Source: Sphingopyxis macrogoltabida | Lineage (GTDB): Bacteria; Pseudomonadota; Alphaproteobacteria; Sphingomonadales; Sphingomonadaceae | DNA: 64,000 nucleotides | Direction: 5' to 3' | NCBI RefSeq assembly: GCF_001307295.1 | Contig: NZ_CP012700.1 | Span: 127,001 to 191,000 of the forward strand | The notes under the pieces: model-generated | What the model was told of the DNA's origin: nothing | Database searches by the model: none | What the model saw: only the letters and a program-made list of their open reading frames with translations | In this document: in pieces, positions 7,695 through 29,248 of the stretch | Numbering within the stretch: position 1 is the first letter of the stretch | Layout: each line of letters starts with the position of its first letter | Position numbers and translations under genes: made by a program

Positions 7695-7806
7695 CCGCGC
7701 TCTATAACAGATAGGGTATATCGGTACAGCCTTTCGGTATTATTTGTTTATGACGGAGGCGCCTAGGCCGGTCGGCAGAGGACGGCTCTCGCATGAAGGA
7801 TCGCGC
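7695..7806 (+). promoter_or_regulatory. Leader and promoter region of the ThDP/ALDH/kynU operon
   Basis: A 112-bp gap with an AT-rich core. CTATAACAGATAG (7702-7714) is an interrupted inverted repeat, followed by GGTATATCGG, whose complement carries GATATA. The same core occurs in the other control regions of the island. A downstream AT tract (TTCGGTATTATTTG) could serve as the -10 area. An in-frame ATG exists at 7750, but the conserved start of the ThDP enzyme is at 7807, so this stretch is better read as a leader than as coding. Confidence 0.45.
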
Positions 7807-12139: not shown

Positions 12140-13522
12140 ATGGACGAACAGGCGTATCTCGATCGCGAGGCGGGGCTCGAACGCGGGCTGACCAAGGCGC
12201 AGATCATCATGATCGGCCTCGGCGGCGCGATCGGCACCGGCCTGTTCATGGGATCGGGCATCGCCATCGGCTATGCCGGGCCCGGCGTCCTCGTCAGCTA
12301 TCTGATCGCCGCGCTGGTCGCGGTGATCATGGTGTTCAGCCTCTCCGAAATGGCGGTCGTCCACCCGACCGCGGGCTCGTTCGGCACCTATGCCGAAATC
12401 TACCTCGGCCCGATGATGGGCTTCATCGTGCGTTACACCTACTGGATCCAGCAGGTCCTGCTGATCGGCAGCGAGGCGGTCGCGGTCGGCATCTATATGC
12501 GCTGGTGGCTGCCCGATACACCGGTGTGGATGTGGGCGCTCGGCAGCGCGGCGACCGTCGTCTGGGTCAACACGCGCGCGGTGCACAATTTCGGTTCGGT
12601 CGAATATTGGCTGACGGTGATCAAGGTGTCGGCGATTGTCGCCTTCATCATTGTCGGTCTGAGCCGCATCTTCGGCATTGTGGGCGATCCGGTCGGCCTC
12701 CACAATGTCACCGGGCTGCCGGGCGGGTTCCTGCCGAACGGTTTTTCGGGCGTGTGGCTCGCGGTGCTGATGGCGCTGTTTTCGTTCATGGGGCTCGAAT
12801 TCGTAGTCGGCACCGCCAGCGAGGCGAAGGATCCGAAGACCGCGATTCCCGCCGCGCTGCGCACGATGGCCGGCCGCCTGTTCCTCTTCTACATCCTCGC
12901 GCTGTTCATCATCGTCGCCTTCCTGCCGTGGACGCAGTCGGGGGCGAAGGTCGTCACCGAAAGCCCGTTCGTGAAGATGTTCGCGAGCGCGGGCATTCCC
13001 TATGCGGCAGGGGTGATGAATTTCGTCGTTGCCTCGGCGGCGCTGTCGGCGATGAACACCAGCATCTATCTGGGCTCGCGCATGCTCTTCTCGCTCGCGC
13101 GCGGCGGCTATGCGCCGCGGACGCTCGGCGAACTCAATGCGCAGCATGTGCCGATGCGCGCGACGATCGTCACCGGGATCGGCATCCTTGCCGCCGCGTC
13201 GGTGTCGATCCTGACCCCGCTCGCCTATAATTATCTCTTCGGCATCGTGCTGTTCGGCGGCCTCCTCGTGTGGAGCGCGATCCTCGTCAGCCACCTCCGC
13301 TTCCGCGCCCGCCACAAGGCGGCCGACCTGCCCGTCCGCATGCCTTTCTTCCCCTATGCGCAGTTACTGGGGCTGGCATTGCTCGCCGCGATCACGATCA
13401 CCATGGCAATCGACGCCGACTGGCAGGTTGCGGTGTTCGCCGGCGGGCCGTGGCTCGTCCTGATCACGGCCGCCTATTTCGTCTGGCGGCGCGTGGCGCG
13501 GGGTTCGGCGGCTCAGGCCTGA
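12140..13522 (+). CDS. Amino-acid permease (APC superfamily, AAT family)
   Basis: A 460-residue inner-membrane protein with about 12 hydrophobic segments. The N-terminus ERGLTKAQIIMIGLGGAIGTG and GSGIAIGYAGPG are typical of the AroP/CycA/GabP-type amino-acid/proton symporters, as are PTAGSFGTYAE in TM3 and the TM6-8 GLEFVVGTASEAKDPKTAIP loop. It is the last gene of the operon with kynureninase, 22 bp downstream, so kynurenine, tryptophan or a related amino acid is the probable substrate. AAGGGGGACG precedes the ATG. Its 3' end overlaps the convergent LysR gene by 10 bp. Confidence 0.92.
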   Translation: MDEQAYLDREAGLERGLTKAQIIMIGLGGAIGTGLFMGSGIAIGYAGPGVLVSYLIAALVAVIMVFSLSEMAVVHPTAGSFGTYAEIYLGPMMGFIVRYTYWIQQVLLIGSEAVAVGIYMRWWLPDTPVWMWALGSAATVVWVNTRAVHNFGSVEYWLTVIKVSAIVAFIIVGLSRIFGIVGDPVGLHNVTGLPGGFLPNGFSGVWLAVLMALFSFMGLEFVVGTASEAKDPKTAIPAALRTMAGRLFLFYILALFIIVAFLPWTQSGAKVVTESPFVKMFASAGIPYAAGVMNFVVASAALSAMNTSIYLGSRMLFSLARGGYAPRTLGELNAQHVPMRATIVTGIGILAAASVSILTPLAYNYLFGIVLFGGLLVWSAILVSHLRFRARHKAADLPVRMPFFPYAQLLGLALLAAITITMAIDADWQVAVFAGGPWLVLITAAYFVWRRVARGSAAQA

Positions 13523-14466
13523 TCCTGCCCCAGCTCGGCGCGGATTTCGGCCGCGACCTCGCCGACCACCTCCATGAAATAGGCGGCGGCTGCCGACAGT
13601 TCGACATTGGCGTGCATCGTCGCGCCGATCCGCGAGCCTGCGCCCTCCAGTGTCACCGGCAAGGCAACCAGCCCGGCCTGGCTCAGCCCGACCTGATGCG
13701 GCATCGCGGCGAGCATGTCGGTATTCATCAGCAGCGCATGGTTGGTCAGGATCGACACCGATTCGATGACGTCGAGCGGCGGTTCGAGATCGTCGTGGCG
13801 AAAGGCCTGATCGATCTGGCGGCGGAGCGAGGTCTGGTTCGGCGGCATCACCCACGCCTGTTCGACCAGATCGGCGAGCGTCAGCGACGCGCGTTCGGTG
13901 AGCGGATGCCCCGCGCGCACCATGATCGACACGGTGTCGAGATAGAGCACCTCCTGCCGCAGCCCCTCGCGCTCGCGATATTCGGGCAGCCGCCCCAGCA
14001 CGACGTCGATGTCGCCGGTGCGCAGCCCCGGCATCAGCCGGTCGATCGTCCCTTCGGCGACCGTCACCGCGATCCCCGGCCGCCGCTCGCGCAGCCGCGC
14101 CAGCGCGCGCGGCAGCAGCGAGGTCGAGGCGGCGAGCAGTGTTCCGACATGGACGCGCCCCGACAGCCCTTCCTCGAGCGACTGGAGTTCCTCGCTCGCG
14201 TGGCGAAGCTGCGCGAGGATCAGCTTGGCATGCTTGATCATCACCTTGCCGAAATCGGTCGGCGTCACGCCCCGCGACGAGCGTTCGAAAAGCTGGACGC
14301 CGAGTGCATCCTCGAGCTCCTTGATGCTCTTTGTCGCCGCCGGCTGCGCGATGTTGAGCGCCTGTGACCCCTTCAGCACCGTGCCCTCGTCGGCGATCGC
14401 GGTGAGCAGGCGAAGCTGGCGCAGCTTCAGGCGACTCAGCAGGAAATTCTCGTGAAACTTCGGCAT
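13513..14466 (-). CDS. LysR-family transcriptional regulator
   Basis: A 317-residue LysR protein. The N-terminal winged helix-turn-helix (about residues 10-70) reads LKLRQLRLLTAIADEGTVLKG, AAATKSIKELEDALGVQLFE and then RGVTPTDFG. A periplasmic-binding-protein-like effector domain (about 95-300) follows and closely resembles the GbpR/PcaQ type that senses aromatic acids. It is divergent from the ACMSD gene at 14719, the classical arrangement for a LysR regulator and its target. It probably controls ACMSD and perhaps the larger operons, responding to a pathway intermediate. Between it and ACMSD sits an unusually long hairpin (14495-14573). Confidence 0.92.
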   Translation of the reverse strand: MPKFHENFLLSRLKLRQLRLLTAIADEGTVLKGSQALNIAQPAATKSIKELEDALGVQLFERSSRGVTPTDFGKVMIKHAKLILAQLRHASEELQSLEEGLSGRVHVGTLLAASTSLLPRALARLRERRPGIAVTVAEGTIDRLMPGLRTGDIDVVLGRLPEYREREGLRQEVLYLDTVSIMVRAGHPLTERASLTLADLVEQAWVMPPNQTSLRRQIDQAFRHDDLEPPLDVIESVSILTNHALLMNTDMLAAMPHQVGLSQAGLVALPVTLEGAGSRIGATMHANVELSAAAAYFMEVVGEVAAEIRAELGQDQA

Positions 14467-14718: not shown

Positions 14719-15735
14719 ATGACTGGAAATGGTGCGAAACAGGCGGGCGTGATCGATATGCACAGCCACTTCTTCCCGGCGATGGATGCCGCCTATCGCG
14801 CACGCGCCGAGGCCAAGGGGCTGCCCTGGCTGCGCGACGGCGGCGACGGCACGGGTTTCATCATGCAGGGCGCGAAGGAGTTCCGCCCGGTCGACGACAT
14901 CCTCTGGGACCCGGCGCGGCGCGTCGAGGCGCTCGACGAGCAGGGCATCGATCTCCAGATCATCTGCGCGACGCCGATCATGTTCGGCTACAGCCGCCCC
15001 GCGCAGCAGGCGCTCGAATGCGCCGAGCGCTTCAACGACGCCGCGCTCGAATTCTGCGCCCATGCGCCCGAGCGGATGAAGCCGCTTGCGCAGGTGCCGC
15101 TGCAGGACATCGACCTGTCGTGCCGCGAGGTCAGCCGCGCGATGGCCAGCGGCCATCTCGGCGTCCAGATCGGAAATCATATGGGGCTGCGCAATCTCGA
15201 CGACGAAGGCATATTGACCTTCCTCACCCATTGCGCCGAGGTCGGCGCGGCGGTGCTCGTCCATCCGTGGGACATGATGGCGCGCGAGCGCATGCCCAAA
15301 TATATGCTCCCCTGGCTCGTCGCGATGCCGGCCGAGACGCAGCTCTCGATCCTCTCGCTGATCCTGTCGGGCGCGTTCGACCGTCTGCCGAGGAACCTCC
15401 GCATCTGCTTCGGCCATGGCGGCGGCAGCTTTGCCTTCCTGCTCGGCCGGGTAGAAAATGCCTGGAAATACCGCGACATCGTCCGCGTCGACTGCCCCAA
15501 TCCGCCTTCGACCTATGTCGACCGCTTCTTCGTCGATTCGGCGGTGTTCGACCCGCGCGCGCTCACCCTGCTGGTCGAGGTGATGGGCGAGGACCGCATC
15601 CTGCTCGGCTCCGACCACCCCTTTCCGCTCGGCGAGCAGGACATCGGGGCGCTGGTATGCGACCATGACGGGCTGTCGGCGGCGCAGAAGGCGAAGATCC
15701 TCAGCGGCAATTCGCGGACCTTCCTGAATCTGTAG
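14719..15735 (+). CDS. nbaD: 2-Amino-3-carboxymuconate-6-semialdehyde decarboxylase (ACMSD)
   Basis: A 338-residue amidohydrolase-fold enzyme. The metal ligands and catalytic residues expected of ACMSD are visible: MHSHFFP near the N-terminus (His 15 and 17), VLVHPWDM (about His 177), CFGHGGGS (about His 227) and LLGSDHPFP (Asp near 293). It decarboxylates the unstable ring-cleavage product of 3-hydroxyanthranilate to 2-aminomuconate semialdehyde, diverting flux from quinolinate. The partner enzymes are encoded at 23267-29248. ACMSD stands alone here, divergent from the LysR regulator, rather than inside the main operon. The symbol follows the nitrobenzoate-degradation nba set and is by homology. 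Confidence 0.9.
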
Positions 15736-15988: not shown

Positions 15989-16435
15989 TCACGCCGCCGG
16001 CGGCACGCCCTTGAAGCTTTCGGTACCCGCCCAGCCGCGTTCGGAGACGTCGACCATCACATTTTCGGGCCCCGCCATCTTGTATTCGGCGTTGTCCTTG
16101 GCGGGATTCTTGCCCAGCCCCTGCGCCAGATTGACGTCGTGGCGCGGCGCATAGCCCGAATTTTCGAAGCGCTCGACGACCGCGTTGATGTCGTCGCACT
16201 GAAAGCCGATGTGGTGCAGCCCGGTATAGCCCTCGGGGAATTCCATCCCGGCGGCGGGGCGGTTCTTGAAGCACAGCAGCGCGATATTGATGTGGCCGTC
16301 GGTGACATAATAGCCGCGCGCGTTGCGGCTATCGATCTTGCCGGCGACGGTCCAGCCGAGGACGTCGGTGAAGAAGCCGACCGAATTGTCGGGGTCGGCG
16401 GACGCGATCGCCACGTGACGGAGGCGGGTGGTCAT
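15989..16435 (-). CDS. VOC-family (glyoxalase/dioxygenase fold) protein
   Basis: A 148-residue single VOC module pair. It begins RLRHVAIASADPDNSVGFF, with a candidate metal ligand His near residue 7, GLHHIGFQCDDI in the middle and a late Glu in GPENVMVDVSERGW. VOC proteins include extradiol dioxygenases, glyoxalases and isomerases. It is the distal gene of a two-gene operon, 13 bp after the aspartate dehydrogenase-like gene, and ends at a clear terminator. The role is unknown; ring cleavage or isomerisation of an amino-aromatic intermediate is possible from context only. Confidence 0.85.
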   Translation of the reverse strand: MTTRLRHVAIASADPDNSVGFFTDVLGWTVAGKIDSRNARGYYVTDGHINIALLCFKNRPAAGMEFPEGYTGLHHIGFQCDDINAVVERFENSGYAPRHDVNLAQGLGKNPAKDNAEYKMAGPENVMVDVSERGWAGTESFKGVPPAA

Positions 16436-16448
16436 TGGTGAGGCCTTT

Positions 16449-17252
16449 CTATGTTCCGATGCGAATGGGACTGACGAGGTCGTTCAACGCCGCGACGATG
16501 CTTTGCGCGGTGATCCGGCCGGTGCCGGGATTCTCGACCGTGGGAATATTCTCGATCGACAGTTCGAAGCGCGCGCTGTCCGAATCGACAATGATGCGGT
16601 GCGTATTGCGTTCGAGCGCGGGGTCGGCCCAGATTTCGAGCTGCGTCCGCGCGGGGCCGATCCCCGCCATGCCGAGCGCCGCGGCGACATTGACGTTGGC
16701 GGGAAAGGCGATCGCGCCTTCGAGCGCGCTGCCCTCGAAGATCTTCAGCGGTTCGGTCAGGCCGGTGAGGTCGATGTTGTTGCGCACGACATGCTCGGCC
16801 TTGACCAGCGACTTCACCGGCTTGCGGGTCACCATCGTCACCGAATGGATCGTGCCGACCGCAGCGGCGCGCACCGCGTCGAGCCCGAGCAAGGCGCCGG
16901 TGGCGAGGACGATACGGCCGCCGTGCGCGCGCGCGATGTCGGTCGCCTCGGGCCATTGCATCAGCGCCGCGCCGCTCACCGTCACCAGCGTCTTGCCCGC
17001 GCTGAGCGTTGCGGTGGCGATGTCGCGGAAGGCCGCGGTCGGCGCGCTGTCGACGACGACGTCGGACAGCGCGACGAGTTCGGCGGTATCGACGATCGGC
17101 ACCGGCCTTTCGAGCGCGGCCATCGCGGCCGCCGCGCGGCCCCGGTCGCCGGCGGAAACCGCCGCCAGCGTCAGCGGCAGCGCGCTCGCTTCGATATGGC
17201 GCGCGACGACGCGGCCGATGGTGCCGAATCCGGCAATGCCCACTTTTGTCAT
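16449..17252 (-). CDS. Aspartate dehydrogenase-like NAD(P) oxidoreductase
   Basis: A 267-residue protein. The N-terminal Rossmann fold (VGIAGFGTIGRVVARHIE) is followed by a C-terminal domain of the NadX/DUF108 type (ANVNVAAALGMAGIGPARTQ, then ADPALERNTHRIIV). Characterised relatives interconvert L-aspartate and oxaloacetate or iminoaspartate. It is divergent from the 14-gene operon and co-transcribed with a VOC gene. In this setting it might act on an amino-dicarboxylate derived from the pathway, or recycle ammonia released by the 2-aminomuconate deaminase. Family assignment is firm; the physiological substrate is not. Confidence 0.87.
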   Translation of the reverse strand: MTKVGIAGFGTIGRVVARHIEASALPLTLAAVSAGDRGRAAAAMAALERPVPIVDTAELVALSDVVVDSAPTAAFRDIATATLSAGKTLVTVSGAALMQWPEATDIARAHGGRIVLATGALLGLDAVRAAAVGTIHSVTMVTRKPVKSLVKAEHVVRNNIDLTGLTEPLKIFEGSALEGAIAFPANVNVAAALGMAGIGPARTQLEIWADPALERNTHRIIVDSDSARFELSIENIPTVENPGTGRITAQSIVAALNDLVSPIRIGT

Positions 17253-17440
17253 GTCCGCCGCGCTACGGCGTCTTTTATATATGGGAAAATAGTCTTTGGC
17301 GGTCCTTCTATCTGCAAATCGATATAGCCCGGGTTTTCGGGCCTGATATATATTTTCGATTATATATAGGCGCTGTTTCTATCTTTGACGGCATATGCGA
17401 CACGCCGCACAAGTCGGGCTGACCTTTTTGGGGGAAGTCG
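17253..17440. promoter_or_regulatory. Divergent promoter region between AspDH operon and 14-gene catabolic operon
   Basis: This 188-bp intergenic region is markedly AT-rich (about 17270-17375). It contains ATCGATATA at 17318-17326, a small hairpin CCCGGGTTTTCGGG (17328-17341), and TTCGATTATATATAGG. ATCGATATA is identical to the motif at 1716-1724 in front of the TonB receptor. The stretch must hold the promoter for at least 14 downstream genes. CTTTTTGGGGGAAGTCG before 17441 offers a weak ribosome site. Confidence 0.5.
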
Positions 17441-18268
17441 ATGCCGGATGTGCTGAACGGGGAGATGTTGACGCTCGCGGCGATGATGCTGGTGACCGGC
17501 GCGGTCGGCGGCGTGATCGCCGGCATGCTCGGCGTCGGCGGCGGCATCGTCATCGTGCCGGTGCTCGACCTTGTCCTCGCCTCGTTCGGCATCGACGGCG
17601 ATGTCCGCATGCACGTTACCGTCGCGACCTCGCTCGCGACGATCATTCCCACCGCTATCTCCTCTTCGCGCGCCCATGAAGCCAAGGGCGCCGTCGATCA
17701 CGATCAGCTAAAGCACTGGGCGATTGCGATCTTCCTCGGGGCGATCGCCGGGGTCGTCCTCGCCAGCCGGGTGTCGGGCGATGTCCTGTCGGCGGTGTTC
17801 GGCATCGTCGCGCTGCTCGTCGCGATCAAGATGCTGCTGCCGCTCGAGGGCAAGCATATCGCCGATGCGGTCCCGGGCGGCGCGGCGGGGCAGGTGATTC
17901 CGTTCGCGATCGGCGGCCTTTCCAGCATGATGGGGATCGGCGGCGGCACGCTCAGCGTCCCCGTAATGACCTTGTTCAACGTCCCCATCCACCGCGCGGT
18001 CGGCACCGCGGCGCTGTTCGGCCTGCTGATCAGCGCCCCGGCGACGGTGGCCTTCATCATCGCCGGCTGGCATGTCGAGGACCTGCCGCCGGGCAGCCTC
18101 GGCTATGTCAACCTGATCGGCCTCGCGATCATCGCGCCGGTGTCCTACTTCACGGCGCCGTGGGGCGCGCGGATCGCGCATGCCCTGTCGAAACGACAGC
18201 TCAGCCTGCTGTTCGGCCTGTTCCTCACCGTCGTCGCGGCGCGCATGCTGCTCCGGGCCTTCGGGTGA
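17441..18268 (+). CDS. TauE/SafE-family membrane permease
   Basis: A 275-residue inner-membrane protein with about eight hydrophobic segments and the duplicated TauE glycine motif: GGVIAGMLGVGGGIVIVP in the first half and GLSSMMGIGGGTLSVPV in the second. Family members export sulfite, sulfoacetate or other small anions. It is the first gene of the operon that includes an NMT1/Ssu-type ABC importer and the 3-hydroxyanthranilate enzymes, so export of an organic acid or overflow intermediate is a fair guess. Its TGA overlaps an in-frame GTG (18265) that opens a possible extension of the next gene. Confidence 0.88.
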   Translation: MPDVLNGEMLTLAAMMLVTGAVGGVIAGMLGVGGGIVIVPVLDLVLASFGIDGDVRMHVTVATSLATIIPTAISSSRAHEAKGAVDHDQLKHWAIAIFLGAIAGVVLASRVSGDVLSAVFGIVALLVAIKMLLPLEGKHIADAVPGGAAGQVIPFAIGGLSSMMGIGGGTLSVPVMTLFNVPIHRAVGTAALFGLLISAPATVAFIIAGWHVEDLPPGSLGYVNLIGLAIIAPVSYFTAPWGARIAHALSKRQLSLLFGLFLTVVAARMLLRAFG

Positions 18269-18420
18269 ACCGCGATGCCGCCTCCTATAAGAAAATCGGC
18301 CCGCCCTATGCGCAACGCATATTGGATCGCCGCGCCGCGCTCGCGCAGATCGGGGGCGCCATGGCGCTCGGCTGCGCGGCCCCGGCGCTCGCCCGTCCCA
18401 CCGGAAAGAAAGAGAGACGC

Positions 18421-19335
18421 ATGACCTGGTTTGCCCTTGCCACCCGCGCCACCCCCGAAGGTCCGCGCGCGACGATCCGGGTCGGCGATGCCTTCCACGA
18501 CCTGCACGATGCCGCTGCGAAACTGGGTTTCGCCGCCGTCGCAGGCGACGTCACCGGAATCGTCCGCGACTGGGATGCGCGCCGCGACGGCCTGTTCGCG
18601 CTCGCCCGGGCGCTCGGCGCGGGATCGGGAACGGTCGCCGCGCCGCAGCTCGCGGCGCCGTTCGAGCCGCGCCGTATCTTCGCCGCCGCATCGAACTTCA
18701 TCGAACATGCCGAGGAAATGCAGACCAAGCTCGCCGCCAAGGCCGAGAGCGAGCCCTATATCTTCCTCAAGACCGTCGAGAGCGTCGTTGGCCCCGGCGC
18801 GACCGTGGTCGTGCCGCCGCAGGTGTCGCGCCCCGACTGGGAGGTCGAACTCGGCGTCGTGCTCGGCCGCGCGGGCAAGAATGTCGCCGCCGCCGATGCG
18901 CACGATCTCATTGCTGGCTACACAATCGTCAACGACGTGTCGGCGCGCGACCGCACCCGCCGCACCGACTTTCCCTTCTCGCACGACTGGTTCCGCGGCA
19001 AGAGCTTCGACAGCTTCACGCCATTGGGGCCGGTGTTCGTGCCGCGCGATTGCCTCGACGATCCGCACGACATTCGGCTGGGGCTCAAGGTCAATGGCGA
19101 GGCGATGCAGGACGGCAATACGTCGGCGATGATCTTCAACATCTACGAACAGATCGCCTATCTCTCGACGATCCTCGAACTCCAGGCGGGCGACCTCATC
19201 GCCTCGGGCACCCCCGCCGGGGTCGGTATGGGGCGCGGCGTCTTCCTCAAGGACGGCGACGTGATGAGCGCGTGGGTCGACGGCATCGGCGAACTGGTGA
19301 ACCCCGTTTCCGCCCCGCACCTGCCGCGGAGCTGA
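18421..19335 (+). CDS. Fumarylacetoacetate hydrolase family protein (start uncertain, possible Tat signal upstream)
   Basis: From ATG 18421 the product has 304 residues with the FAH-fold hallmarks PRRIFAAASNFIEHAEEM, DWEVELGVVLGRAG, YTIVNDVSARDRTRR and AGDLIASGTPAGVGMGRG. The start has a good ribosome site (GAAAGAGAG). However, the same frame is open upstream to GTG 18265, which overlaps the TauE stop as GTGA. It encodes DRRAALAQIGGAMALGCAAP followed by ALARP, which reads as a twin-arginine signal with an Ala-X-Ala site. If used, the enzyme would be periplasmic, unusual for FAH hydrolases. It probably cleaves a diketo acid or lactone-like intermediate; the substrate is unknown. Confidence 0.85.
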   Translation: MTWFALATRATPEGPRATIRVGDAFHDLHDAAAKLGFAAVAGDVTGIVRDWDARRDGLFALARALGAGSGTVAAPQLAAPFEPRRIFAAASNFIEHAEEMQTKLAAKAESEPYIFLKTVESVVGPGATVVVPPQVSRPDWEVELGVVLGRAGKNVAAADAHDLIAGYTIVNDVSARDRTRRTDFPFSHDWFRGKSFDSFTPLGPVFVPRDCLDDPHDIRLGLKVNGEAMQDGNTSAMIFNIYEQIAYLSTILELQAGDLIASGTPAGVGMGRGVFLKDGDVMSAWVDGIGELVNPVSAPHLPRS

Positions 19336-19338
19336 GCG

Positions 19339-20394
19339 ATGGTCGCCTTTTCCCGCCGCTCGCTCATCGCGCCGTTGCTGATCGTCGCGGCGATTGCGGG
19401 CCTGACGTTGTGGAGCGCCTTTGACGGCAGCGCGCCGAAGACCGCGCAGGCCGACGGCGCGCGCGCCACCCCGCTCACAAATGTCCGTTTCAACATGGCG
19501 TGGCTGCCGCAGGGCAGCATGGCAGGCATCTTCGTCGCCATCGACAAGGGCTATTTCGCCGACGCCGGGCTCGCCGTCGAACCGGTGCGCGGCTTCGGCG
19601 GCATGCGCACCGCGAACGAGCTCGATCAGGGCATGTTCGAATTCGCCTACATCGACCCGCTGTCGGTCGCGCTCAACCGCTCGAAGGGCGGCGGCGTCCG
19701 CATGGTCGGCGGTATCAACATGCAGCTTCCCGCCGGCGCCTGCTTCGTCAAGGAGCGGCACAAGATCGCGAAACCCGCCGACCTCGCCGGCCTGCGCTTC
19801 GGCGCCGGGCAAAGCTCGATGATCCAGGCCTTGCTCCCGGCGTGGCTCAAGGCCAATGGCGTCGACCCGGCGCGCGTCGAGCAGATCCAGCTCGACCCCG
19901 CGATCGTCGTCTCGTCGCTCGTCGAGGGGCGGATCGACGCCGCCGAATGCTGGCTCGGCAATTCGATGGCGCTGTTCGACAAGGCAGCAAAGGCAAAGGG
20001 CGTGACGATCGGCCGCATCGGCTACTCCGATTTCGGGCTCGACGTCTACGGCAGCGGCTTCGCGACGCAGGACGCGCTGATCGAGAAAGACCCCGATCTG
20101 GTGCGCGCCTTCCTCAAGGCCGCCTATCGCGGCTATGCTGACGCGGGGCGCGATCCCAAGGCGGCGCTTGCGATCATCCGCAAATCCTATCCTTTGCTCG
20201 ACGAGGCGGTGACCGAACGCCAGATTCGCGAGACCGCGGCGCTGATGGCGGCCGAGGGCGGGTCGCATCGCCTGAAACCCGAAAAGGTCGAGCGCACCGT
20301 CACCTATCTGCAGGCGAGCGGCCAGTTGCAGGGTTTCGACCAGGCGCCGCAGCTTTTCACCAACAGCTTCATCCCGATGGGGAACCAGCCATGA
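19339..20394 (+). CDS. NMT1/SsuA-type ABC transporter substrate-binding protein
   Basis: A 351-residue protein with an N-terminal membrane or signal segment (RRSLIAPLLIVAAIAGLTLW, about residues 6-25). A type II periplasmic-binding fold follows: NMAWLPQGSMAGIFVAIDKG, DAGLAVEPVRGFGG, then GLRFGAGQSSM and DAAECWLGN. This NMT1/THI5/SsuA family binds sulfonates, pyrimidines, aromatic acids and related anions. It starts 3 bp after the FAH gene. Permease and ATPase genes follow, with a VOC gene interposed. The fusion of the importer into the 3-hydroxyanthranilate operon implies an aromatic or heteroaromatic substrate; this is inference. Confidence 0.88.
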   Translation: MVAFSRRSLIAPLLIVAAIAGLTLWSAFDGSAPKTAQADGARATPLTNVRFNMAWLPQGSMAGIFVAIDKGYFADAGLAVEPVRGFGGMRTANELDQGMFEFAYIDPLSVALNRSKGGGVRMVGGINMQLPAGACFVKERHKIAKPADLAGLRFGAGQSSMIQALLPAWLKANGVDPARVEQIQLDPAIVVSSLVEGRIDAAECWLGNSMALFDKAAKAKGVTIGRIGYSDFGLDVYGSGFATQDALIEKDPDLVRAFLKAAYRGYADAGRDPKAALAIIRKSYPLLDEAVTERQIRETAALMAAEGGSHRLKPEKVERTVTYLQASGQLQGFDQAPQLFTNSFIPMGNQP

Positions 20395-20948
20395 CCGATC
20401 CCGCTTCCTACCGGCCGCGCCCGACGCGGCTCGGCCACCTCGTGCTCAAGGTGCGCGACATCGACCGCAGCCTCGCCTTCTATACCGAAGTCGTCGGGCT
20501 CAGCGTGTCCGACTGGATCGACCATCATATGGTCTTCCTGCGCGCGGGCGAGGATCACCACGACCTTGCGCTGCTCCAGCTGCCGCCGGGGCACAGCGCC
20601 ATCCCTGAAGGCCATTATCCGGCGGTCGAGCATTTCTCCTATCGCCTCGAAACGCTGACCGAGATGGAGAAGGTCGCCGACATGCTCGTCGCGCGCGGCA
20701 TCACCATCGACCGCGGCATCGGCAAGCACGGGCCGGGAGCAAACAGCTTCCTCGTCTTTCGCGATCCCGACGGCAACAATGTCGAATTTTACACCGACAT
20801 GACGCAGATCACCGCCGAACAGCCCTATGAAGCGTCGGTGTGGGACGGCAAGGACCTCGAAACCTTCGACCGCTGGCACCTCGATCGCTTTCTCGTGCCG
20901 CCGCCGGCGCGCATTCTGGCCTTGCTCGACAAGGACGGCGACGCATGA
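20391..20948 (+). CDS. VOC-family protein, extradiol-dioxygenase-like
   Basis: A 185-residue VOC protein. The N-terminal module starts RLGHLVLKVRDIDRSLAFYT with the first candidate metal His, IDHHMVFLRAGEDHHDLALL holds the second, and FRDPDGNNVEFYTD supplies the terminal Glu. This His/His/Glu facial triad is typical of type I extradiol dioxygenases and glyoxalases. It overlaps the binding-protein gene by 4 bp and the permease gene by 4 bp, so it is embedded between transporter genes. It may cleave or isomerise the imported compound. The activity is not predictable from sequence alone. Confidence 0.85.
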   Translation: MTDPASYRPRPTRLGHLVLKVRDIDRSLAFYTEVVGLSVSDWIDHHMVFLRAGEDHHDLALLQLPPGHSAIPEGHYPAVEHFSYRLETLTEMEKVADMLVARGITIDRGIGKHGPGANSFLVFRDPDGNNVEFYTDMTQITAEQPYEASVWDGKDLETFDRWHLDRFLVPPPARILALLDKDGDA

Positions 20949-21697
20949 GCCGGTTGTTTAGCCGCGATGCTGCGATCAGCATCGTCTTCTTCGCCGCGCT
21001 CGGGCTCGCGTGGGAATATGGCGTGCGCTGGTCGGGCATCCAGTCCTATCTGCTGCCGCCGCCGAGTGCGATCCTCGGCGAATTGTGGCAGTCGCGCGGG
21101 CCGATCCTGTCGCAAAGCCTCGTCACGCTGACCGAGGTCTTCTGGGGCTTCATCATCGCGGTCGCGCTCGGCGTTCCCGTTGCGACATTAATCTATTTCT
21201 CGCGCACCGCCAAACGCACCGTCTATCCGCTGTTCGTCGCGTTGCAGAGCATCCCGAAGATCGGGCTCGCGCCGCTGATCGTCGTCTGGTTCGGTTACGG
21301 GCTGGCGTCGAAGCTGATCATGGCCTTCCTCTTCGCCTTCTTCCCGATCATCATCGCGACCTTGGGCGGGCTGGCGAGCACCCCGGCGCATCTCGAGGAG
21401 CATTTCCGGGCGCTGCGCGCGACGCCGATGCAGGGCTTCTGGCGGCTGCGCGTCCCCGCCGCGCTGCCGAGCTTCCTCGACGGCTGCAAGGTCGCGATGC
21501 CGCTCGCGGTGATCGGCGCGGTGGTCGGCGAGTTCGTCGGCTCGAACGACGGGCTCGGCAACCTCATCCTCACCGCGTCGGGCTCGGGGCACACGACATT
21601 GACCTTCGCGGCGCTGATCGCGGTGACCGTCTTGTCGCTCCTTCTCTTCTACGGCGTCGCCTATTGGGAACGCTTCATCTGGTGGCGGGCGGCATGA
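20945..21697 (+). CDS. ABC transporter permease (SsuC/TauC type)
   Basis: A 250-residue inner-membrane protein with about six transmembrane segments. The start at ATG 20945 overlaps the VOC gene (ATGA); longer in-frame starts upstream lie inside the VOC gene and are rejected. The family signature is the EAA-like loop FFPIIIATLGGLASTPAHLE and the following RVPAALPSFLDGCKVAMPLA. It forms the channel with the ATPase at 21694-22443 and the binding protein at 19339-20394. It belongs to the sulfonate, nitrate, taurine and aromatic-acid importer group. Confidence 0.92.
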   Translation: MSRLFSRDAAISIVFFAALGLAWEYGVRWSGIQSYLLPPPSAILGELWQSRGPILSQSLVTLTEVFWGFIIAVALGVPVATLIYFSRTAKRTVYPLFVALQSIPKIGLAPLIVVWFGYGLASKLIMAFLFAFFPIIIATLGGLASTPAHLEEHFRALRATPMQGFWRLRVPAALPSFLDGCKVAMPLAVIGAVVGEFVGSNDGLGNLILTASGSGHTTLTFAALIAVTVLSLLLFYGVAYWERFIWWRAA

Positions 21698-22443
21698 GCG
21701 CGGTGATCTCCATGGCCGGCGCCGGCAAGGCGTTCGACGGCCGCAAGGTGCTGAACAATGTCAGCGCCGAGATCGGCGCCGCCGAATTCGTCTCGGTGCT
21801 CGGCCCCTCGGGCTGCGGCAAGAGCACGCTGCTCCGCCTGATCGCCGGGCTCCAGCCCTTCGACGAAGGCGGCATCTTGTTCAACGGCGCGGTGGTGCAG
21901 GCGCCGTCGCCCGACATGGGCTTCGTCTTCCAGACGTCGAACCTGCTGCCCTGGCTCAATATCCGCGACAATCTGCTGCTCGGCGTCGATCTCGACCCGG
22001 CGGCGAAACGCCCCGACGCGGCGGCGCTGGCCGAGCTGGTCGAGACATTGGGCCTGACCGGGTTCGAGGACAGCCATCCGCACCAGCTCTCGGGCGGCAT
22101 GCGGCACCGCGTCGCGATCGGACAGGCGCTGGCGCGCGGGCCGCAGGTACTGCTGATGGACGAACCCTTCGGGGCGCTCGATGCGCTGACGCGCGACCGG
22201 CTCAACATGGAATTGCTGCGCATCTGGCAGCGCGACCGCAAGACGGTGCTGCTCGTCACCCACAGCATTTCGGAAGCGGTGCTGCTCTCCGACCGCGTGC
22301 TCGTGATGTCGGAGCGGCCGGGGACGATTATCGAGGATGTCCGCATCGACCTGCCGCGCCCGCGCGATCCCAGCACGACGCGCGAGGATCCGGCATTCGG
22401 CGATTATGTCGTGCGGCTCAGCAAATTGATGGGGGTATCGTGA
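21694..22443 (+). CDS. ABC transporter ATP-binding protein (SsuB/TauB type)
   Basis: A 249-residue ATPase with all the expected elements: Walker A GPSGCGKST (about residues 37-45), a Q-loop near FVFQTSNLLPW, the signature LSGGMRHRVAIGQAL, Walker B VLLMDEPFGALD and the switch His in LLVTHSISEA. The start overlaps the permease gene by ATGA. It energises the importer formed with the permease and the NMT1-like binding protein. Confidence 0.94.
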   Translation: MSAVISMAGAGKAFDGRKVLNNVSAEIGAAEFVSVLGPSGCGKSTLLRLIAGLQPFDEGGILFNGAVVQAPSPDMGFVFQTSNLLPWLNIRDNLLLGVDLDPAAKRPDAAALAELVETLGLTGFEDSHPHQLSGGMRHRVAIGQALARGPQVLLMDEPFGALDALTRDRLNMELLRIWQRDRKTVLLVTHSISEAVLLSDRVLVMSERPGTIIEDVRIDLPRPRDPSTTREDPAFGDYVVRLSKLMGVS

Positions 22444-23270
22444 TGGACAGTGGGATGCTGGAAGCGGCGGGCGCCGAAATCTATTGGCAGGCGCATGGGG
22501 CCGGTCCGGCGGTCGTGCTCGCGCACGGCATCGGCGGCAACCACGCGATCTGGTACCGCCAGCTCGATGCGCTGTCGCGCGCGAACCGCGTCATCACCTT
22601 CGATCATCGCGGCTTCGGCCTGTCGCGCGATCATGACGGGCGCGGGCGCGATGCCTTCGTCGACGATCTGGCGGCGCTGCTCGACAAGCTCGGCGAAGCG
22701 AAGGTGGCGTTGGTCGGCCAGTCGATGGGCGCGGGCACCTGCATCGGTTTCGCGCACCGTGCGCCCGAACGCGTCGCGGCGCTCGCGATCTGCGACAGCC
22801 TCCACGGCATCGTCGAGAGCGGCGAGGTGAAGGCAATCATGGACGCGGCGCGGACAAAGACCGCCGCCCTGTCGCAGGTCGAGCGCGTGCTCGGCGTGGG
22901 GGCGCAGGCCGAACTCGCGGCGCTCTACCGCCAGATTGCGAGCTTCAACGCCGCCGACCGCCACAGCCTGACCGGCCGCTTCGACGCGCGCCCGGCGGCC
23001 GAACTCGGCGGCAAGGGCTTTCCGATCCTTTTCCTGTCGGGCGTCGACGACATTCTCTTCCCGATCGAGGCGGTGCGGCTCGTGCAGGCCGAGGTGCCGG
23101 GGTCCTTCCTTGTCGAGGTCAACGATGCGGGCCATTCGGCCTTCCTCGAGGCGCCGGTGCAGTTCAACGACACGATCCTTTCGCTGCTCCAGATGGCGGG
23201 GCATGTTGGCAAGGCGGGCGCCGCGCACAGCAATGCGGCGGGCTATGTCCCGGTCGGGGGTGCGGCGTGA
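22443..23270 (+). CDS. Alpha/beta-fold hydrolase
   Basis: A 275-residue hydrolase. The oxyanion region is LAHGIGGNHAIW, the nucleophile elbow is GQSMGAG (Ser near residue 96), the acid is in LSGVDDILFP and the catalytic His in NDAGHSAFLEAP. ATG 22443 follows a GTG at 22440; both overlap the ATPase stop. Related enzymes include C-C hydrolases of meta-cleavage products, 3-oxoadipate enol-lactonases and esterases. Between importer and pathway genes it is a good candidate for removing an acyl, ester or amide group (a formamidase-like role included) from the imported substrate. That role is inferred. Confidence 0.87.
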   Translation: MDSGMLEAAGAEIYWQAHGAGPAVVLAHGIGGNHAIWYRQLDALSRANRVITFDHRGFGLSRDHDGRGRDAFVDDLAALLDKLGEAKVALVGQSMGAGTCIGFAHRAPERVAALAICDSLHGIVESGEVKAIMDAARTKTAALSQVERVLGVGAQAELAALYRQIASFNAADRHSLTGRFDARPAAELGGKGFPILFLSGVDDILFPIEAVRLVQAEVPGSFLVEVNDAGHSAFLEAPVQFNDTILSLLQMAGHVGKAGAAHSNAAGYVPVGGAA

Positions 23271-24745
23271 CCGGCACCGCCTATCCATTCGCCGAACGCC
23301 CGGTGCTGAACTATGTCGACGGCGCCTTCGTCGAGGGCGAGCGCTGGTTCGACAATGTGAACCCCGTCGACGGCAGCGTCGCCGGGCGCGTGTCGCAGGC
23401 GAGCCGCGAGCTTGTCGACCGCGCCGTCGCTGCCGGGCGCGCGGCGCTCAAGGGACCGTGGGGCAAGATGTCGCAGGCCGAGCGCTGCAAATTGCTCGTC
23501 CGCATCGCCGAGGGGATCGAGGCGCGCTTCGACGAATTCGCCGCCGCCGAGATCGCCGACACCGGCAAGTCGCTGCATCAGGCGCGGACGATCGATATCC
23601 CGCGCGGCGCCGCCAATTTCCGCGCCTTCGCCGCACTTGCCGAGGCGCGCGCGATGCCGAGCTTCTGCACCGATCTGCCGGGCGGGCGCAGCGCGATCAA
23701 CTATGCCATCGCGCGGCCCTTGGGTGTCGTCGCGATCGTCTCGCCGTGGAACCTGCCGCTGCTGCTGATGACCTGGAAGGTCGCGCCCGCGCTCGCGTGC
23801 GGCAATGTCGTGGTGGTGAAGCCAAGCGAGGAAACGCCCTCGACGGCGACCCTGCTCGCCGAGGTGATGGATGCGGCGGGCGTGCCGCCGGGGGTTTTCA
23901 ACCTCGTGCACGGCTTTGGCGCTGCATCGACCGGCGAATGGCTGACTGCCAATCCCGATATCGACGCGATCACCTTCACCGGTGAATCGGCGACCGGCGG
24001 CGCGATCATGCGCGTCGCGGCGGCGGGGGTGAAACCCGTGTCGTTCGAACTCGGCGGCAAGAATGCCGCGCTCGTCTTCGCCGACTGCGATTTCGACGAG
24101 GCTGTCGCAGGGACGGTGCGTTCGGTCTTCTCGAACTGCGGCCAGGTCTGCCTCTGCACAGAGCGTGTCTATGTCGAGCGGCCGATCTTCGACCGCTTCG
24201 TCGCCGCGCTCGCCGAGCGGGCGAAGGCGCTCACCGTCGGCGATCCCTGGTCGGGCGCCGACATGGGGCCGCTGATCTCGCACGGCCACCGCGAGAAAGT
24301 ACTCTCCTATTATGCGCTGGCGCGCGAGGAGGGCGCGACGGTCGTCGCGGGCGGCGGGGTGCCCGAACTGGACGGCGCGCTCGCGGGCGGTGCCTTTGTC
24401 GAACCGACGATTCTGACCGGGCTCGGGCCCGATGCGCGCTGCGTGCGCGAGGAGATTTTCGGCCCCATCTGCCACATCGCACCCTTCGACAGCGAAGAAG
24501 AAGCGATCAGGCTTGCCAACGACACCGACTATGGCCTCGCCGCCGCGATCTGGACGCGCGACGTCGGCCGCGCGCACCGTGTCGCGGCAGAGATGGAGAC
24601 GGGCATCGTCTGGGTCAACGAATGGTTCCTGCGCGACCTGCGCACCCCGTTCGGCGGCATGAAACTGTCGGGCATCGGGCGCGAGGGCGGCGAACATTCG
24701 CTGGGCTTCTATTCCGAACCGACCAATATCTGCGTGAAACTGTAA
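23267..24745 (+). CDS. nbaE: 2-Aminomuconate-6-semialdehyde dehydrogenase
   Basis: A 492-residue ALDH close to the 2-hydroxymuconic and 2-aminomuconic semialdehyde dehydrogenase group. It contains VSPWNLPLLLMTWKVAPAL, the catalytic Glu in SFELGGKNAALVF (about residue 262) and the catalytic Cys in NCGQVCLCTERVYV (about 296), ending GREGGEHSLGFYSEPTNICV. It oxidises 2-aminomuconate semialdehyde, the product of ACMSD, to 2-aminomuconate with NAD+. The GTG start overlaps the hydrolase stop. The assignment to the amino rather than hydroxy substrate rests on co-occurrence with 3-hydroxyanthranilate dioxygenase, ACMSD and the deaminase. Confidence 0.9.
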   Translation: MTGTAYPFAERPVLNYVDGAFVEGERWFDNVNPVDGSVAGRVSQASRELVDRAVAAGRAALKGPWGKMSQAERCKLLVRIAEGIEARFDEFAAAEIADTGKSLHQARTIDIPRGAANFRAFAALAEARAMPSFCTDLPGGRSAINYAIARPLGVVAIVSPWNLPLLLMTWKVAPALACGNVVVVKPSEETPSTATLLAEVMDAAGVPPGVFNLVHGFGAASTGEWLTANPDIDAITFTGESATGGAIMRVAAAGVKPVSFELGGKNAALVFADCDFDEAVAGTVRSVFSNCGQVCLCTERVYVERPIFDRFVAALAERAKALTVGDPWSGADMGPLISHGHREKVLSYYALAREEGATVVAGGGVPELDGALAGGAFVEPTILTGLGPDARCVREEIFGPICHIAPFDSEEEAIRLANDTDYGLAAAIWTRDVGRAHRVAAEMETGIVWVNEWFLRDLRTPFGGMKLSGIGREGGEHSLGFYSEPTNICVKL

Positions 24746-24755
24746 GAGGAAGACC

Positions 24756-25531
24756 ATGGCAGACATTGCCGCCATCGCCGCAAGGCTCGACGAAGCTGCC
24801 CTCGGTGCCCGCGCGATCGCGCAGATCACCGGGCAGGAGGGCGAATTGCCGCTCGCCGAAGCCTATGAAATCCAGCGTGCCGCCATCGACCGGCGCCTCG
24901 CGCGCGGCGCGACGCTCGTCGGGGTGAAGATGGGCTTCACCAGCGAAGCGAAGATGGTCCAGATGGGGCTCAAGGACCAGATCTGGGGCCGGCTGACCTC
25001 CGACATGGTCGTCGTCAACGGCGCTGCGATCGACCGCGCGCGCTTCATCCACCCGCGCGTCGAGCCTGAGGTCGCGGTACGGCTGAAGGCGCCGCTCGCG
25101 GGCGAAGTGACGCGCGACGAAGCGCTCGCGGCCATCGATGCGGTCGCCGCGGCGCTCGAGATCATCGACAGCCGCTACGAGAATTTCCGTTTCGCGCTCG
25201 GCGATGTCGTCGCCGACAATGCGTCGTCGTCGGCGTTCGTCACCGGACCGTGGCTTGCCGCCGACACCGATATCGCCGATGTCGCGATGGTGATGCGCGT
25301 CGACGGCGAGGTCGCCGAGACCGGGACGAGCGCCGCGATTCTCGGCGATCCGGTCCGCTCACTCGTCGCGGCGGCGCGGCTTGCGGGCGCGGCGGGGCTG
25401 ACCCTCCAGCCGGGCTGGACGGTGATGCTCGGCGGCGCGACCGCGGCGGCGGCGATCGGCACTGCGCGCAGCGTATCGCTCGACGCCGGCCATCTCGGCC
25501 GCGTCGGCTTCACGATCGGGGGAGGCGTAGC

Positions 25532-25535
<4 letters not shown>
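24756..25535 (+). CDS. nbaG: 4-Oxalocrotonate decarboxylase
   Basis: A 259-residue member of the FAH-like decarboxylase and hydratase family. [41 protein letters not shown] and [12 protein letters not shown] are close to classical 4-oxalocrotonate decarboxylases (XylI/DmpH), distinguishing it from the hydratase paralogue at 26489-27268. It converts 2-oxohex-3-enedioate to 2-oxopent-4-enoate and CO2, normally in complex with the hydratase. It starts 10 bp after the dehydrogenase with AAGAGGAAGACC as ribosome site. Confidence 0.9.
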
Positions 25536-27268
<1,733 letters not shown>

Positions 27269-27272
27269 CGAG

Positions 27273-28229
27273 ATGGCGAAAACCCCCAATGGCAAGACGA
27301 AAGTCGCGATCATCGGCTCGGGCAATATCGGCACCGACCTGATGATCAAGATCATGCGCCTGTCGGATATCCTCGAAATGGGCGCTTTCGTCGGCATCGA
27401 TCCCGAAAGCGACGGGCTCAAACGCGCCGAACGGCTGGGCGTGCCGATCACGGCGGGCGGCCTCGACGGCCTGATCGCGCTGCCCGGCTTTGCCGATATC
27501 GCGATCGTGTTCGATGCGACCTCCGCAGGCGCCCATAAGCACCACAGCGAGGTGTTGATCGCCCACGGCAAGCGCGTCGTCGACCTCACCCCCGCCGCGA
27601 TTGGTCCTTACACGATCCCGCCGGTCAACGGCGATGCGAACCTCGATGCCGCCAACGTCAATATGGTGACCTGCGGCGGGCAGGCGACGATCCCGATCGT
27701 TGCGGCGGTGAACCGCGTTGCCAAGGTGCATTATGGCGAGATTGTCGCCTCGATCGCCTCGAAGAGCGCCGGCCCCGGCACCCGCGCCAACATCGACGAG
27801 TTTACCGAGACGACGAGCGAGGCGATCATGAAGGTCGGCGGCGCGACGCGCGGCAAGGCGATCATCGTCCTCAACCCCGCCGAACCGCCGCTGATCATGC
27901 GCGATACCGTCTATTGCCTCTGCGACGACGCCGACCGCGACGCGATTGCGCAGAGCGTCGAGGATATGGTCGCCGAGGTGCAGGCCTATGTTCCCGGCTA
28001 CCGGCTCAAACAGGCGGTCCAGTTCGAAAGCATCGGCAGCAACGCACCGCTGCATATCCCCGAAATGGACGGCAGCTTCACGGGGCTGAAGGTCAGCGTC
28101 TTCCTTGAGGTCGAGGGGGCGGCGCATTACCTCCCGGCCTATGCCGGCAATCTCGACATCATGACCTCGGCGGCGCTCAAGACGGCCGAGAAGATCGCGC
28201 TCCGCATGAACGAAGGAGTGGCCGCATGA
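27273..28229 (+). CDS. nbaJ: Acetaldehyde dehydrogenase (acylating)
   Basis: A 318-residue enzyme with an N-terminal Rossmann fold ([19 protein letters not shown]) and the catalytic cysteine in [14 protein letters not shown] (about residue 132), followed by the dimerisation domain. It oxidises acetaldehyde to acetyl-CoA with NAD+ and CoA, and channels it from the aldolase encoded next. ATG 27273 follows GGCATAGCGAG, 4 bp after the hydratase gene. It corresponds to DmpF/MhpF/BphJ. Confidence 0.94.
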
Positions 28230-29248
28230 GCTTTGATCCGACGACCACCAAACTCTATATCCAGGACGTCACGCTGCGCGACGGCATGCACGCGATCCGC
28301 CACCAATATGGCCTCGGCCATGTGCAGGCGATCGCGAGGGCGCTCGACCGCGCGAAGGTCGACGCGATCGAGGTCGCGCACGGCGACGGGCTGCAGGGAT
28401 CGAGCTTCAACTACGGCTTCGGCGCGCACACCGACTGGGACTGGATCGGCGCGGTCGCCGAGGTGCTCGAACATAGCGTGCTGACCACGCTGTTGCTGCC
28501 CGGCATCGGCACCATCCACGACCTCAAACATGCTTATGAAATGGGCGTGCGCTCGGTCCGCATCGCGACGCACTGCACCGAGGCCGATGTCGCGAAACAG
28601 CATATCGAGTTCGCACGCGGCATCGGCATGGACGTCTCGGGCTTCCTGATGATGAGCCATATGTCGCAGCCCGAGCCGCTCGCGCAGCAGGCCAAGCTGA
28701 TGGAAAGCTATGGCGCGCACTGCGTCTATGTCACCGACAGCGGCGGCGCGCTGACGATGGATCAATATGCGGCGCGGTTGCAGGCCTATGATCGCGTACT
28801 CAAACCCGAAACCCAGCGCGGCGTCCACGCGCACCACAACCTCAGCCTCGGCGTCGCGAACAGTATCGTCGCGGTGCAAAATGGCGCGGTGCGCGTCGAC
28901 GCGAGCCTCGCCGGCATGGGCGCGGGCGCGGGTAATGCCCCGCTCGAAGTGTTCATCGCCGCGGCTGACGTCCACGGCTGGAACCATGGCTGCGACCTTT
29001 ATGCGCTGATGGATGCGGCCGAGGACCTTGTCCGCCCGCTGCAGGACCGCCCGGTGCGCGTCGACCGCGAGACGCTGACGCTGGGATACGCCGGGGTCTA
29101 CTCCAGCTTCCTCCGCCATGCCGAAAAAGCCGCCGCCGAGCATGGGCTCGATACCCGCGCCATCCTCGTCGAACTCGGACGCCGCAAGATGGTCGGCGGG
29201 CAGGAGGATATGATCGTCGACGTCGCGCTCGACATGTTGAAGCAATAG
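28226..29248 (+). CDS. nbaI: 4-Hydroxy-2-oxovalerate aldolase
   Basis: A 340-residue class II pyruvate aldolase of the DmpG/MhpE/BphI type. It has the N-terminal metal-binding [47 protein letters not shown] and the His-x-His in [16 protein letters not shown]. It splits 4-hydroxy-2-oxovalerate into pyruvate and acetaldehyde and forms a channelling complex with the upstream dehydrogenase, with which it overlaps by ATGA. It is the last gene of the operon; a convergent beta-propeller gene follows after 19 bp. Confidence 0.95.

Follow-up and report, generated by a model that had tools for sequence, protein, structure and literature searches.

A run of 14 genes was analysed in Sphingopyxis macrogoltabida (assembly GCF_001307295.1), within a window of 64,000 nucleotides (contig NZ_CP012700.1, positions 127,001 to 191,000 of the forward strand) whose own numbering is used throughout. 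The genes all lie on the + strand between positions 17441 and 29248, were taken from the open reading frame list, and were named from Pfam and NCBIfam matches. The first half of the run encodes an ABC importer and accompanying hydrolases, and the second half encodes enzymes of the 3-hydroxyanthranilate (3HAA) meta pathway:

17441..18268, +, TauE/SafE-family permease, at the head of the operon (PF01925, 161 bits)
18265..19335 (GTG) or from ATG 18421, +, FAH-family hydrolase (PF01557, 240 bits)
19339..20394, +, NMT1/THI5-type substrate-binding protein (PF09084, 119 bits)
20391..20948, +, VOC1, single-domain VOC protein with an extradiol-dioxygenase-like metal site (PF00903, 79 bits)
20945..21697, +, ABC permease (PF00528, 98 bits, longer frame scanned)
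21694..22443, +, ABC ATPase (PF00005, 105 bits, longer frame scanned)
22440..23270, +, abH, alpha/beta hydrolase (PF00561, 112 bits)
23267..24745, +, 2-amino/hydroxymuconic semialdehyde dehydrogenase (TIGR03216, 824 bits, cut-off 693)
24756..25535, +, 4-oxalocrotonate decarboxylase-like protein, DmpH type (TIGR03218, 208 bits, below the cut-off of 351)
25532..25963, +, RidA-family protein, 2-aminomuconate deaminase candidate (PF01042, 98 bits)
25968..26492, +, 3-HAO, 3-hydroxyanthranilate 3,4-dioxygenase (TIGR03037, 258.8 bits, cut-off 145.95)
26489..27268, +, 2-oxopent-4-enoate hydratase-like protein, DmpE type (PRK11342, 290 bits, below the cut-off of 350)
27273..28229, +, acetaldehyde dehydrogenase (acylating) (TIGR03215, 470 bits, cut-off 282)
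28226..29248, +, 4-hydroxy-2-oxovalerate aldolase (TIGR03217, 571 bits, cut-off 286)

A reading of the same DNA made from the sequence only had described a tightly packed 14-gene operon carrying the 3HAA meta pathway. All 14 genes were recovered on the + strand with Pfam or NCBIfam support, and the pathway enzymes are there: 3-HAO exceeded its curated cut-off, as did the lower meta enzymes assigned by TIGR03216, TIGR03215 and TIGR03217, while the DmpH- and DmpE-type genes fell under their equivalog cut-offs. The set of 14 is not a complete pathway: the pathway decarboxylase (ACMSD) is absent from it and encoded upstream of the operon, at 14719-15735, as is kynureninase, at 10864-12117.

Neighbouring genes overlap by 4 bp at eight of the 13 junctions; four others leave gaps of 3, 4, 4 and 10 bp, and one a gap of 152 bp, lengths that depend on gene starts picked by the analyst from the possible ones; 12 of 13 are thus overlaps or gaps of at most 10 bp, in line with the earlier description. 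The 152-bp gap separates the end of the TauE gene (18268) from the FAH gene if ATG 18421 is the start, and turns into a 4-bp overlap with GTG 18265, again as had been proposed. The junction at which both halves meet, between abH and the semialdehyde dehydrogenase gene, is also a 4-bp overlap and therefore leaves no intergenic space for a promoter or terminator between them. This spacing suggests that the 14 genes form one transcript. Consensus scans showed no promoter excess (one found, mean 1.3) and gave 11 terminator-like sites (mean 7.3, standard deviation 3.1); nothing was concluded from either count. On the opposite strand, a convergent gene for a YncE/PQQ-associated type beta-propeller (29268-30221, -) has its end 19 bp past the operon.

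The binding-protein alignment led to 58 loci in named genomes (numbered with L), against which the window proteins were run by tblastn. At least ten of the 14 genes were present on one strand at 60% identity or more in 13 loci. All 14 genes were seen in six of these; several others were truncated at a contig end or at the limit of the 10-kb flank, and L006 and L008 gave no TauE match. The same order was kept in 12 of the 13, the outcome of a comparison across relatives that the sequence-only reading had proposed as a check.

Related loci and co-inheritance with 3-HAO

Across the 58 loci, FAH was found in 55, VOC1 in 52, abH in 27, a NadX homologue in 24, 3-HAO in 19, kynureninase in 16 and ACMSD in 15, counts based on bit thresholds and lowered by contig ends and the 10-kb flank. 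The most constant genes were those for FAH, the binding protein, VOC1, the permease and the ATPase, and not kynureninase. The importer half, consisting of these five genes and often a hydrolase, is a separate module in Proteobacteria and Acidobacteria. Sphingopyxis-type loci keep the 14-gene order. Sphingomonas L019 has the 3HAA genes after abH but in a different order, and L017 and L018, both cut short, start likewise; L020, L022 and L024 carry the 3HAA genes on the opposite strand, and in the Kordiimonas-type L058 they form a separate block. These varied arrangements in Sphingomonas and Kordiimonas-type loci show that both halves are separable. The association recurs, in other arrangements, in Burkholderia arboris, Cupriavidus metallidurans, L058 and the Acidobacteria L025 and L030, so that variants of the same gene kit are found from Acidobacteria to Burkholderia. 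An operon peculiar to sphingomonads was rejected, as the module occurs in distant lineages.

A branch with support of 100/99 divided the binding-protein tree into one side holding the 27 loci with abH, the window, and L016, L027 and L029, which have no abH, and another side of 28 loci, none with abH. Several branches were long and the inner placements are unsure. On the side without abH, genes for DHDPS-family, other alpha/beta hydrolase, nitroreductase-family and GST proteins recurred with GntR regulators.

Three further loci were reached via a plasmid collection, and in these FAH and VOC1 were constant and the importer varied, as would be expected if FAH and VOC1 act on the imported compound. 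The C. metallidurans CH34 locus (NC_007974.2, L137) shares with the window the 3HAA genes, kynureninase, amino acid permease, FAH, VOC1 and a beta-propeller (66%); it differs in having no NMT1 ABC match in 20 kb, with a porin, an additional RidA and enzymes of the DHDPS and nitroreductase families instead. There, kynureninase and 3-HAO are divergent from the genes for the beta-propeller, FAH, VOC1, another hydrolase, DHDPS, RidA, the nitroreductase-family protein and the lower 3HAA enzymes. Plasmid pla_2 of Burkholderia arboris (L138) carries FAH, binding protein, VOC1, permease and ATPase, then a LysR gene and a 3HAA block with 3-HAO; its hydrolase is a different one (abH3), and DHDPS, a GntR regulator and another order within the 3HAA block set it apart. 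In the Diaphorobacter locus the NMT1 binding protein is replaced by one of tripartite type, and 3-HAO is missing from the stretch.

The sequence-only reading had held that the known clusters are without an importer of this kind, which is only partly right: CH34 has FAH and VOC and no matching ABC genes in 20 kb, but in B. arboris FAH, importer and VOC lie beside the 3HAA block. Compared with the nba/onb-type 3HAA meta pathway, known from degraders of 2-nitrobenzoate and tryptophan, the window encodes the same 3-HAO, ACMSD, semialdehyde dehydrogenase, RidA-type deaminase, decarboxylase, hydratase, aldolase and acetaldehyde dehydrogenase, but the operon puts an ABC importer, FAH, VOC and abH ahead of them and its ACMSD lies outside. 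The available parts of PMC5817917 name the onb cluster and do not state the products of onbX1-X3, so an importer there is possible. In open-access papers, none of the titles listed by a literature search dealt with this arrangement of importer and 3HAA genes. In other loci (L124, L125, L130, L131 and L163-L165; Ensifer, Aminobacter, Nitratireductor and others), 3-HAO was accompanied by a DHDPS-family protein and a distinct type of aldehyde dehydrogenase, and the part read gave no matches to the lower enzymes usually found, perhaps reflecting another 3HAA route.

Among 397 Sphingomonadaceae genomes, 11 had a strong 3-HAO match (E <= 1e-40), 9 the binding protein (E <= 1e-100) and 10 the secreted-looking beta-propeller encoded upstream of the operon. 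For 3-HAO, there were 22 at E <= 0.001 and 14 over the cut-off, those weaker than E 1e-40 being left out of the 11; G031 (26% identity, E 4.9e-22) was not counted as having a binding-protein orthologue. All nine binding-protein genomes were among the 11 with strong 3-HAO (Fisher p ~1e-16, not corrected for kinship), and the same nine made up all but one of the beta-propeller genomes. The tenth (G224) had a beta-propeller copy with one stop and no 3-HAO match.

The search of module genomes covered 47 (48 of the 58 loci were given, of which L038 was dropped, and 10 were not given). 3-HAO exceeded the family cut-off in 40 of them, and the beta-propeller was present in 28, including a partial match in G408 and a weak one in G412 (38%, 168 bits). 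As counted by the analyst, genomes whose locus bears abH had 3-HAO and the beta-propeller in 19 of 19 cases each, and those without abH in 21 and 9 of 28, respectively. In a sample of 200 genomes from the same phylum, own genome included, 3-HAO was found in 11, the beta-propeller in two (both with 3-HAO) and the binding protein only in the own genome. The co-inheritance of module and 3-HAO also holds where the two are not neighbours, and a coincidental neighbourhood of importer and 3HAA genes was rejected on this ground.

Protein features of the importer half

The label of an Ssu-type importer given by the sequence-only reading proved loose. The binding protein scored 70.4 bits against the NCBIfam SsuA model (cut-off 163.5) and 37.4 against TauA (304.25), the permease 73.1 against TauC (342) and 61.1 against SsuC (347), and the ATPase 218.1 against the Tau ATPase (357) and 183.5 against the Ssu ATPase (395). 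SsuABC and TauABC belong to the same broad ABC class, with an NMT1-related binding protein, but the window importer is under all the curated cut-offs. The nearest solved relatives of the binding protein were 4nmy and a formylaminopyrimidine-binding protein.

ATG 18421 yields the FAH enzyme body, and GTG 18265 adds 52 residues in frame with it, containing an arginine pair and a hydrophobic stretch and ending in small residues; this extension reads as resembling a twin-arginine signal peptide. When the frame upstream of FAH was read, the extension with its arginine pair was present in 12 of 13 Sphingopyxis-type sequences (the window, L004-L014 and L031, with two records titled Brevundimonas bullata), L008 being without it, and was not seen in Sphingomonas, Kordiimonas-type or more distant loci. 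In the codon comparison, which omits L008, the nonsynonymous/synonymous ratio of the extension was 0.73 in frame, against 0.90 and 1.13 when read in either other frame, while the first 100 enzyme codons of the same 12 sequences gave 0.39; these ratios lend modest support to translation of the extension. A purine-rich leader also precedes ATG 18421, and two FAH forms are therefore possible, the longer of which may be exported by the Tat system.

FAH possesses both the FAA_hydrolase domain and the conserved His/Glu dyad expected of an acylpyruvase. Its N92, H96 and E99 (short-form numbering) were conserved in 56 sequences, a pattern that we take to be that of acylpyruvate hydrolases, with the dyad presumably catalytic. 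In abH, the active-site Ser-Asp-His set (S94, D203 and H231) was conserved in 28 sequences.

In VOC1, H16, H81, E132, H57 and H113 were conserved in 56 sequences, and the His-His-Glu metal triad of type I extradiol dioxygenases (H16, H81, E132) was present in at least 93%. In these dioxygenases a second-sphere Tyr is catalytic. According to the HMMER alignment to 1f1r, VOC1 has V122 at the column of this Tyr, invariant in 13 aligned sequences. The VOC1 model was middling (pLDDT 75.9), and the fold search placed plain glyoxalases level with the homogentisate dioxygenase 9u42, settling no family; 9u42 also aligned over part of the C-terminal region, with a poor root mean square deviation of 6.1.

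The surrounding gene cluster

The operon sits inside a larger catabolic cluster, listed here from the gene nearest to it outwards:

16449..17252, -, NadX-type L-aspartate dehydrogenase homologue (PRK13302, 318 bits, cut-off 253)
15989..16435, -, VOC2, second VOC protein (PF00903, 46 bits), which goes with NadX in relatives
14719..15735, +, ACMSD (490 bits to bacterial ACMSD structures)
13513..14466, -, LysR-type regulator, PcaQ-like (201 bits, below the cut-off of 304)
12140..13522, +, amino acid permease (PF00324, 316 bits)
10864..12117, +, kynureninase (TIGR01814, 319 bits, cut-off 246; 514 bits to 1qz9)
9432..10874, +, aldehyde dehydrogenase (PF00171, 489 bits)
7744..9435, +, ThDP-dependent enzyme, acetolactate-synthase-like
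7008..7694, +, second FAH-family protein (FAH-type motif seen in the translation by eye; 60% to the extra FAH of L020)
6070-6993, lipoprotein-like protein in the upstream part of the cluster
4211..5965, +, LVIVD-repeat beta-propeller, secreted-looking (model pLDDT 88.6)
1821..4196, +, TonB-dependent receptor (PF00593, 155 bits)
1..1548, -, second beta-propeller copy, running past the left edge (match G000:C1:126773-128452 of the own genome, 58%)

The two beta-propeller copies are 58% alike, and their relative in C. metallidurans is the 66% match noted above; the family is labelled only 'hypothetical' or 'LVIVD repeat' in its sources. With the model of the complete copy, the top Foldseek match was 5hrm, a phosphotriesterase of Sphingobium TCM1 (E 8.9e-17, TM 0.48, 15% identity), and the next different protein listed had E 2.6e-8. 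With VIA-align, 5hrm was not among the best 50 matches, and WD40 proteins came top. The two model-based searches disagree on the best match, and a metal hydrolase role for the beta-propeller is a lead only.

Several neighbouring features recurred elsewhere. A relative (60%) of the second FAH gene adjoins the operon-type FAH gene in L020. The NadX homologue, often with VOC2, recurs beside the module or 3-HAO (24 of the 58 loci), as in L020-L030, L058 and L127 (62%). In L168, from the genome that also holds L028 (Parahaliea mediterranea, a gammaproteobacterium), homologues of the TonB receptor, aldehyde dehydrogenase, ThDP enzyme, beta-propeller and kynureninase are together; the genes at the left of the window cluster may thus likewise be a conserved set. 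Within the 64 kb, CTAT/ATAG half-sites reached their highest density in three divergent intergenic regions of the cluster (1601-1760, 14521-14640 and 17281-17400), and the region 17253-17440 is conserved among Sphingopyxis-type relatives, including a TTCTATCTTTGACTGCATATC-like stretch. An operator shared by the intergenic regions of the cluster is possible, with AT-rich promoters confounding the half-site count.

Origin of the substrate and candidate routes

From the gene content, order, conservation and co-inheritance observed, and with substrate and enzyme roles inferred, we hold with moderate confidence that a single operon within this cluster couples the uptake of an outside aromatic compound to the 3HAA meta pathway. 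The NMT1/THI5-type importer would bring in an aromatic acid of the tryptophan/kynurenine family, and VOC1, abH and FAH, the latter with its acylpyruvase-type site, would open it or cut it down, with pyruvate and a ring entering 3HAA catabolism as the most likely products. 3-HAO, ACMSD, the semialdehyde dehydrogenase, RidA, decarboxylase, hydratase, aldolase and acetaldehyde dehydrogenase would then convert 3HAA into pyruvate and acetyl-CoA. Outside the inner membrane, the compound would be handled by the TonB receptor and the secreted beta-propellers. In Sphingopyxis, an exchangeable importer module would thus be fused to the 3HAA block in one transcript.

For the classical kynurenine pathway, the own genome possesses tryptophan dioxygenase (TDO, 201 bits), a candidate formamidase of cyclase type (65 bits) and, at 2.37 Mb (G000:C1), a second kynureninase. 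Kynurenine 3-monooxygenase (KMO) was sought there with FAD_binding_3, with two structure-sequence searches and with an NCBIfam scan and was not recognised, no KMO-specific model having been run. The four strongest of 11 FAD_binding_3 matches fitted other families best (a PRK06185 oxidoreductase, a Ubi-type hydroxylase, a tetracycline-destructase type and a geranylgeranyl-reductase type), and the other seven, judged by eye only, were short and partial. As no KMO was recognised, a source of 3HAA other than KMO is attractive, and for this reason uptake followed by trimming was kept as the best reading. The second kynureninase belongs to another tryptophan cluster (G000:C1:2366000-2377000, L119) with a pterin-dependent aromatic hydroxylase, TDO, the cyclase-type formamidase, a CN-hydrolase, a two-cupin protein and FAH (42%), which looks like a route via 5-hydroxytryptophan and a hydroxyanthranilate.

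The sequence-only reading had the pathway start from an imported compound trimmed to 3HAA, and had not used kynureninase and ACMSD, both in the same cluster. That the importer genes belong with 3HAA breakdown is borne out by their co-inheritance with 3-HAO and the lack of a recognised KMO, but the trimming to 3HAA stays conjectural. Several observations weigh against it and against uptake coupled to this pathway. Six of the 47 module genomes had no 3-HAO match and one only a sub-cut-off match, and the module, with its enzymes, can therefore probably work without the 3HAA pathway. The loci of these seven all lack abH, L027 still falling on the abH side of the tree. In two Sphingomonadaceae genomes (G220 and G174) the 3HAA block occurs alone, with no module, and the beta-propeller is missing from 19 of the 47. 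Since the 47 were picked for having the module, and include close kin, their contrast with the 200-genome sample is inflated. On the enzyme side, VOC1 has a conserved Val in place of the extradiol Tyr, so ring cleavage by VOC1 is unproven, and no hydroxylase for the 3-hydroxyl group was recognised in the cluster. The window kynureninase matches the Pseudomonas fluorescens enzyme (514 bits), and not the human one, at the W and G-T positions, which we take to be tied to substrate choice; it resembles a kynurenine-type enzyme that would yield anthranilate and not 3HAA.

Following close behind uptake and trimming is a parallel branch, which we regard as possible rather than probable: the module would degrade another ring, of hydroquinone or hydroxyanthranilate type, in a homogentisate-like manner by a VOC dioxygenase and then FAH, meeting the 3HAA pathway only at pyruvate and being co-transcribed with it via shared source material. 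Homogentisate and gentisate pathways do pair a ring dioxygenase with an FAH-type hydrolase, sometimes with GST, but the candidate dioxygenase of the window is a single-domain VOC protein. Moreover, 9u42 ranked no higher than plain glyoxalases in the fold search and was not among the 33 VOC1 sequence matches, and 3-HAO accompanied the module in every one of the 19 genomes whose locus has abH. Gentisate, mimosine/hydroxypyridone and Rut-like readings, from gene content alone, are leads.

A more detailed form of uptake and trimming is a KMO-free 3HAA route, put forward tentatively. An extracellular conjugate or quinoline-type relative, with xanthurenate as a candidate, would be cut by the secreted beta-propeller as a metal hydrolase and by Tat-exported FAH as an acylpyruvase, imported by the NMT1/THI5-type ABC system, and finished by VOC1 and abH to 3HAA and pyruvate.

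It is unlikely that the importer or the amino acid permease merely supplies kynurenine or 3-hydroxykynurenine, from which kynureninase would make (3-hydroxy)anthranilate, with FAH, VOC1 and abH as clean-up accessories. The kynureninase and amino acid permease genes upstream of the operon, and the kynureninase homologue in 16 of the 58 loci, would fit such a supply. An NMT1/THI5-type binding protein, on the other hand, is unusual for an amino acid; the most constant genes of the loci do not include kynureninase; and the window enzyme looks kynurenine-type, given the presumed residue roles. Salvage of quinolinate or picolinate formed spontaneously from the 3HAA ring-cleavage products is very improbable. 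It would account for co-inheritance with 3-HAO without neighbourhood, and spontaneous cyclisation to quinolinate is described in the accessible part of PMC10143591, but no pyridine hydroxylase was recognised in the module, and the importer genes accompany TonB and secreted-type proteins. Sulfonate import by an ordinary Ssu/Tau system lying by chance ahead of a known nba-type operon was rejected as the most improbable reading, since, TauE and the weak SsuA/TauA similarity notwithstanding, all Ssu/Tau models stayed under their curated cut-offs, no desulfonating enzyme is among the named cluster genes, and the coupling is conserved in distant lineages.

In the accessible part of PMC10143591, bacterial 3HAA enzymes are placed in tryptophan and 2-nitrobenzoate degradation. 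To a pathway with mainly these inputs, the present cluster adds a function-linked set of importer, FAH, VOC1, hydrolase and secreted beta-propeller. As the module is rare, its binding protein being found in one of 200 phylum genomes, yet usually occurs with 3-HAO, its substrate can be sought directly. This would also give a first lead for the secreted family so far labelled 'hypothetical' or 'LVIVD repeat'. Overall, as importer set and pathway tend to be passed on jointly even in distant bacteria, they probably serve to bring in a compound and break it down.

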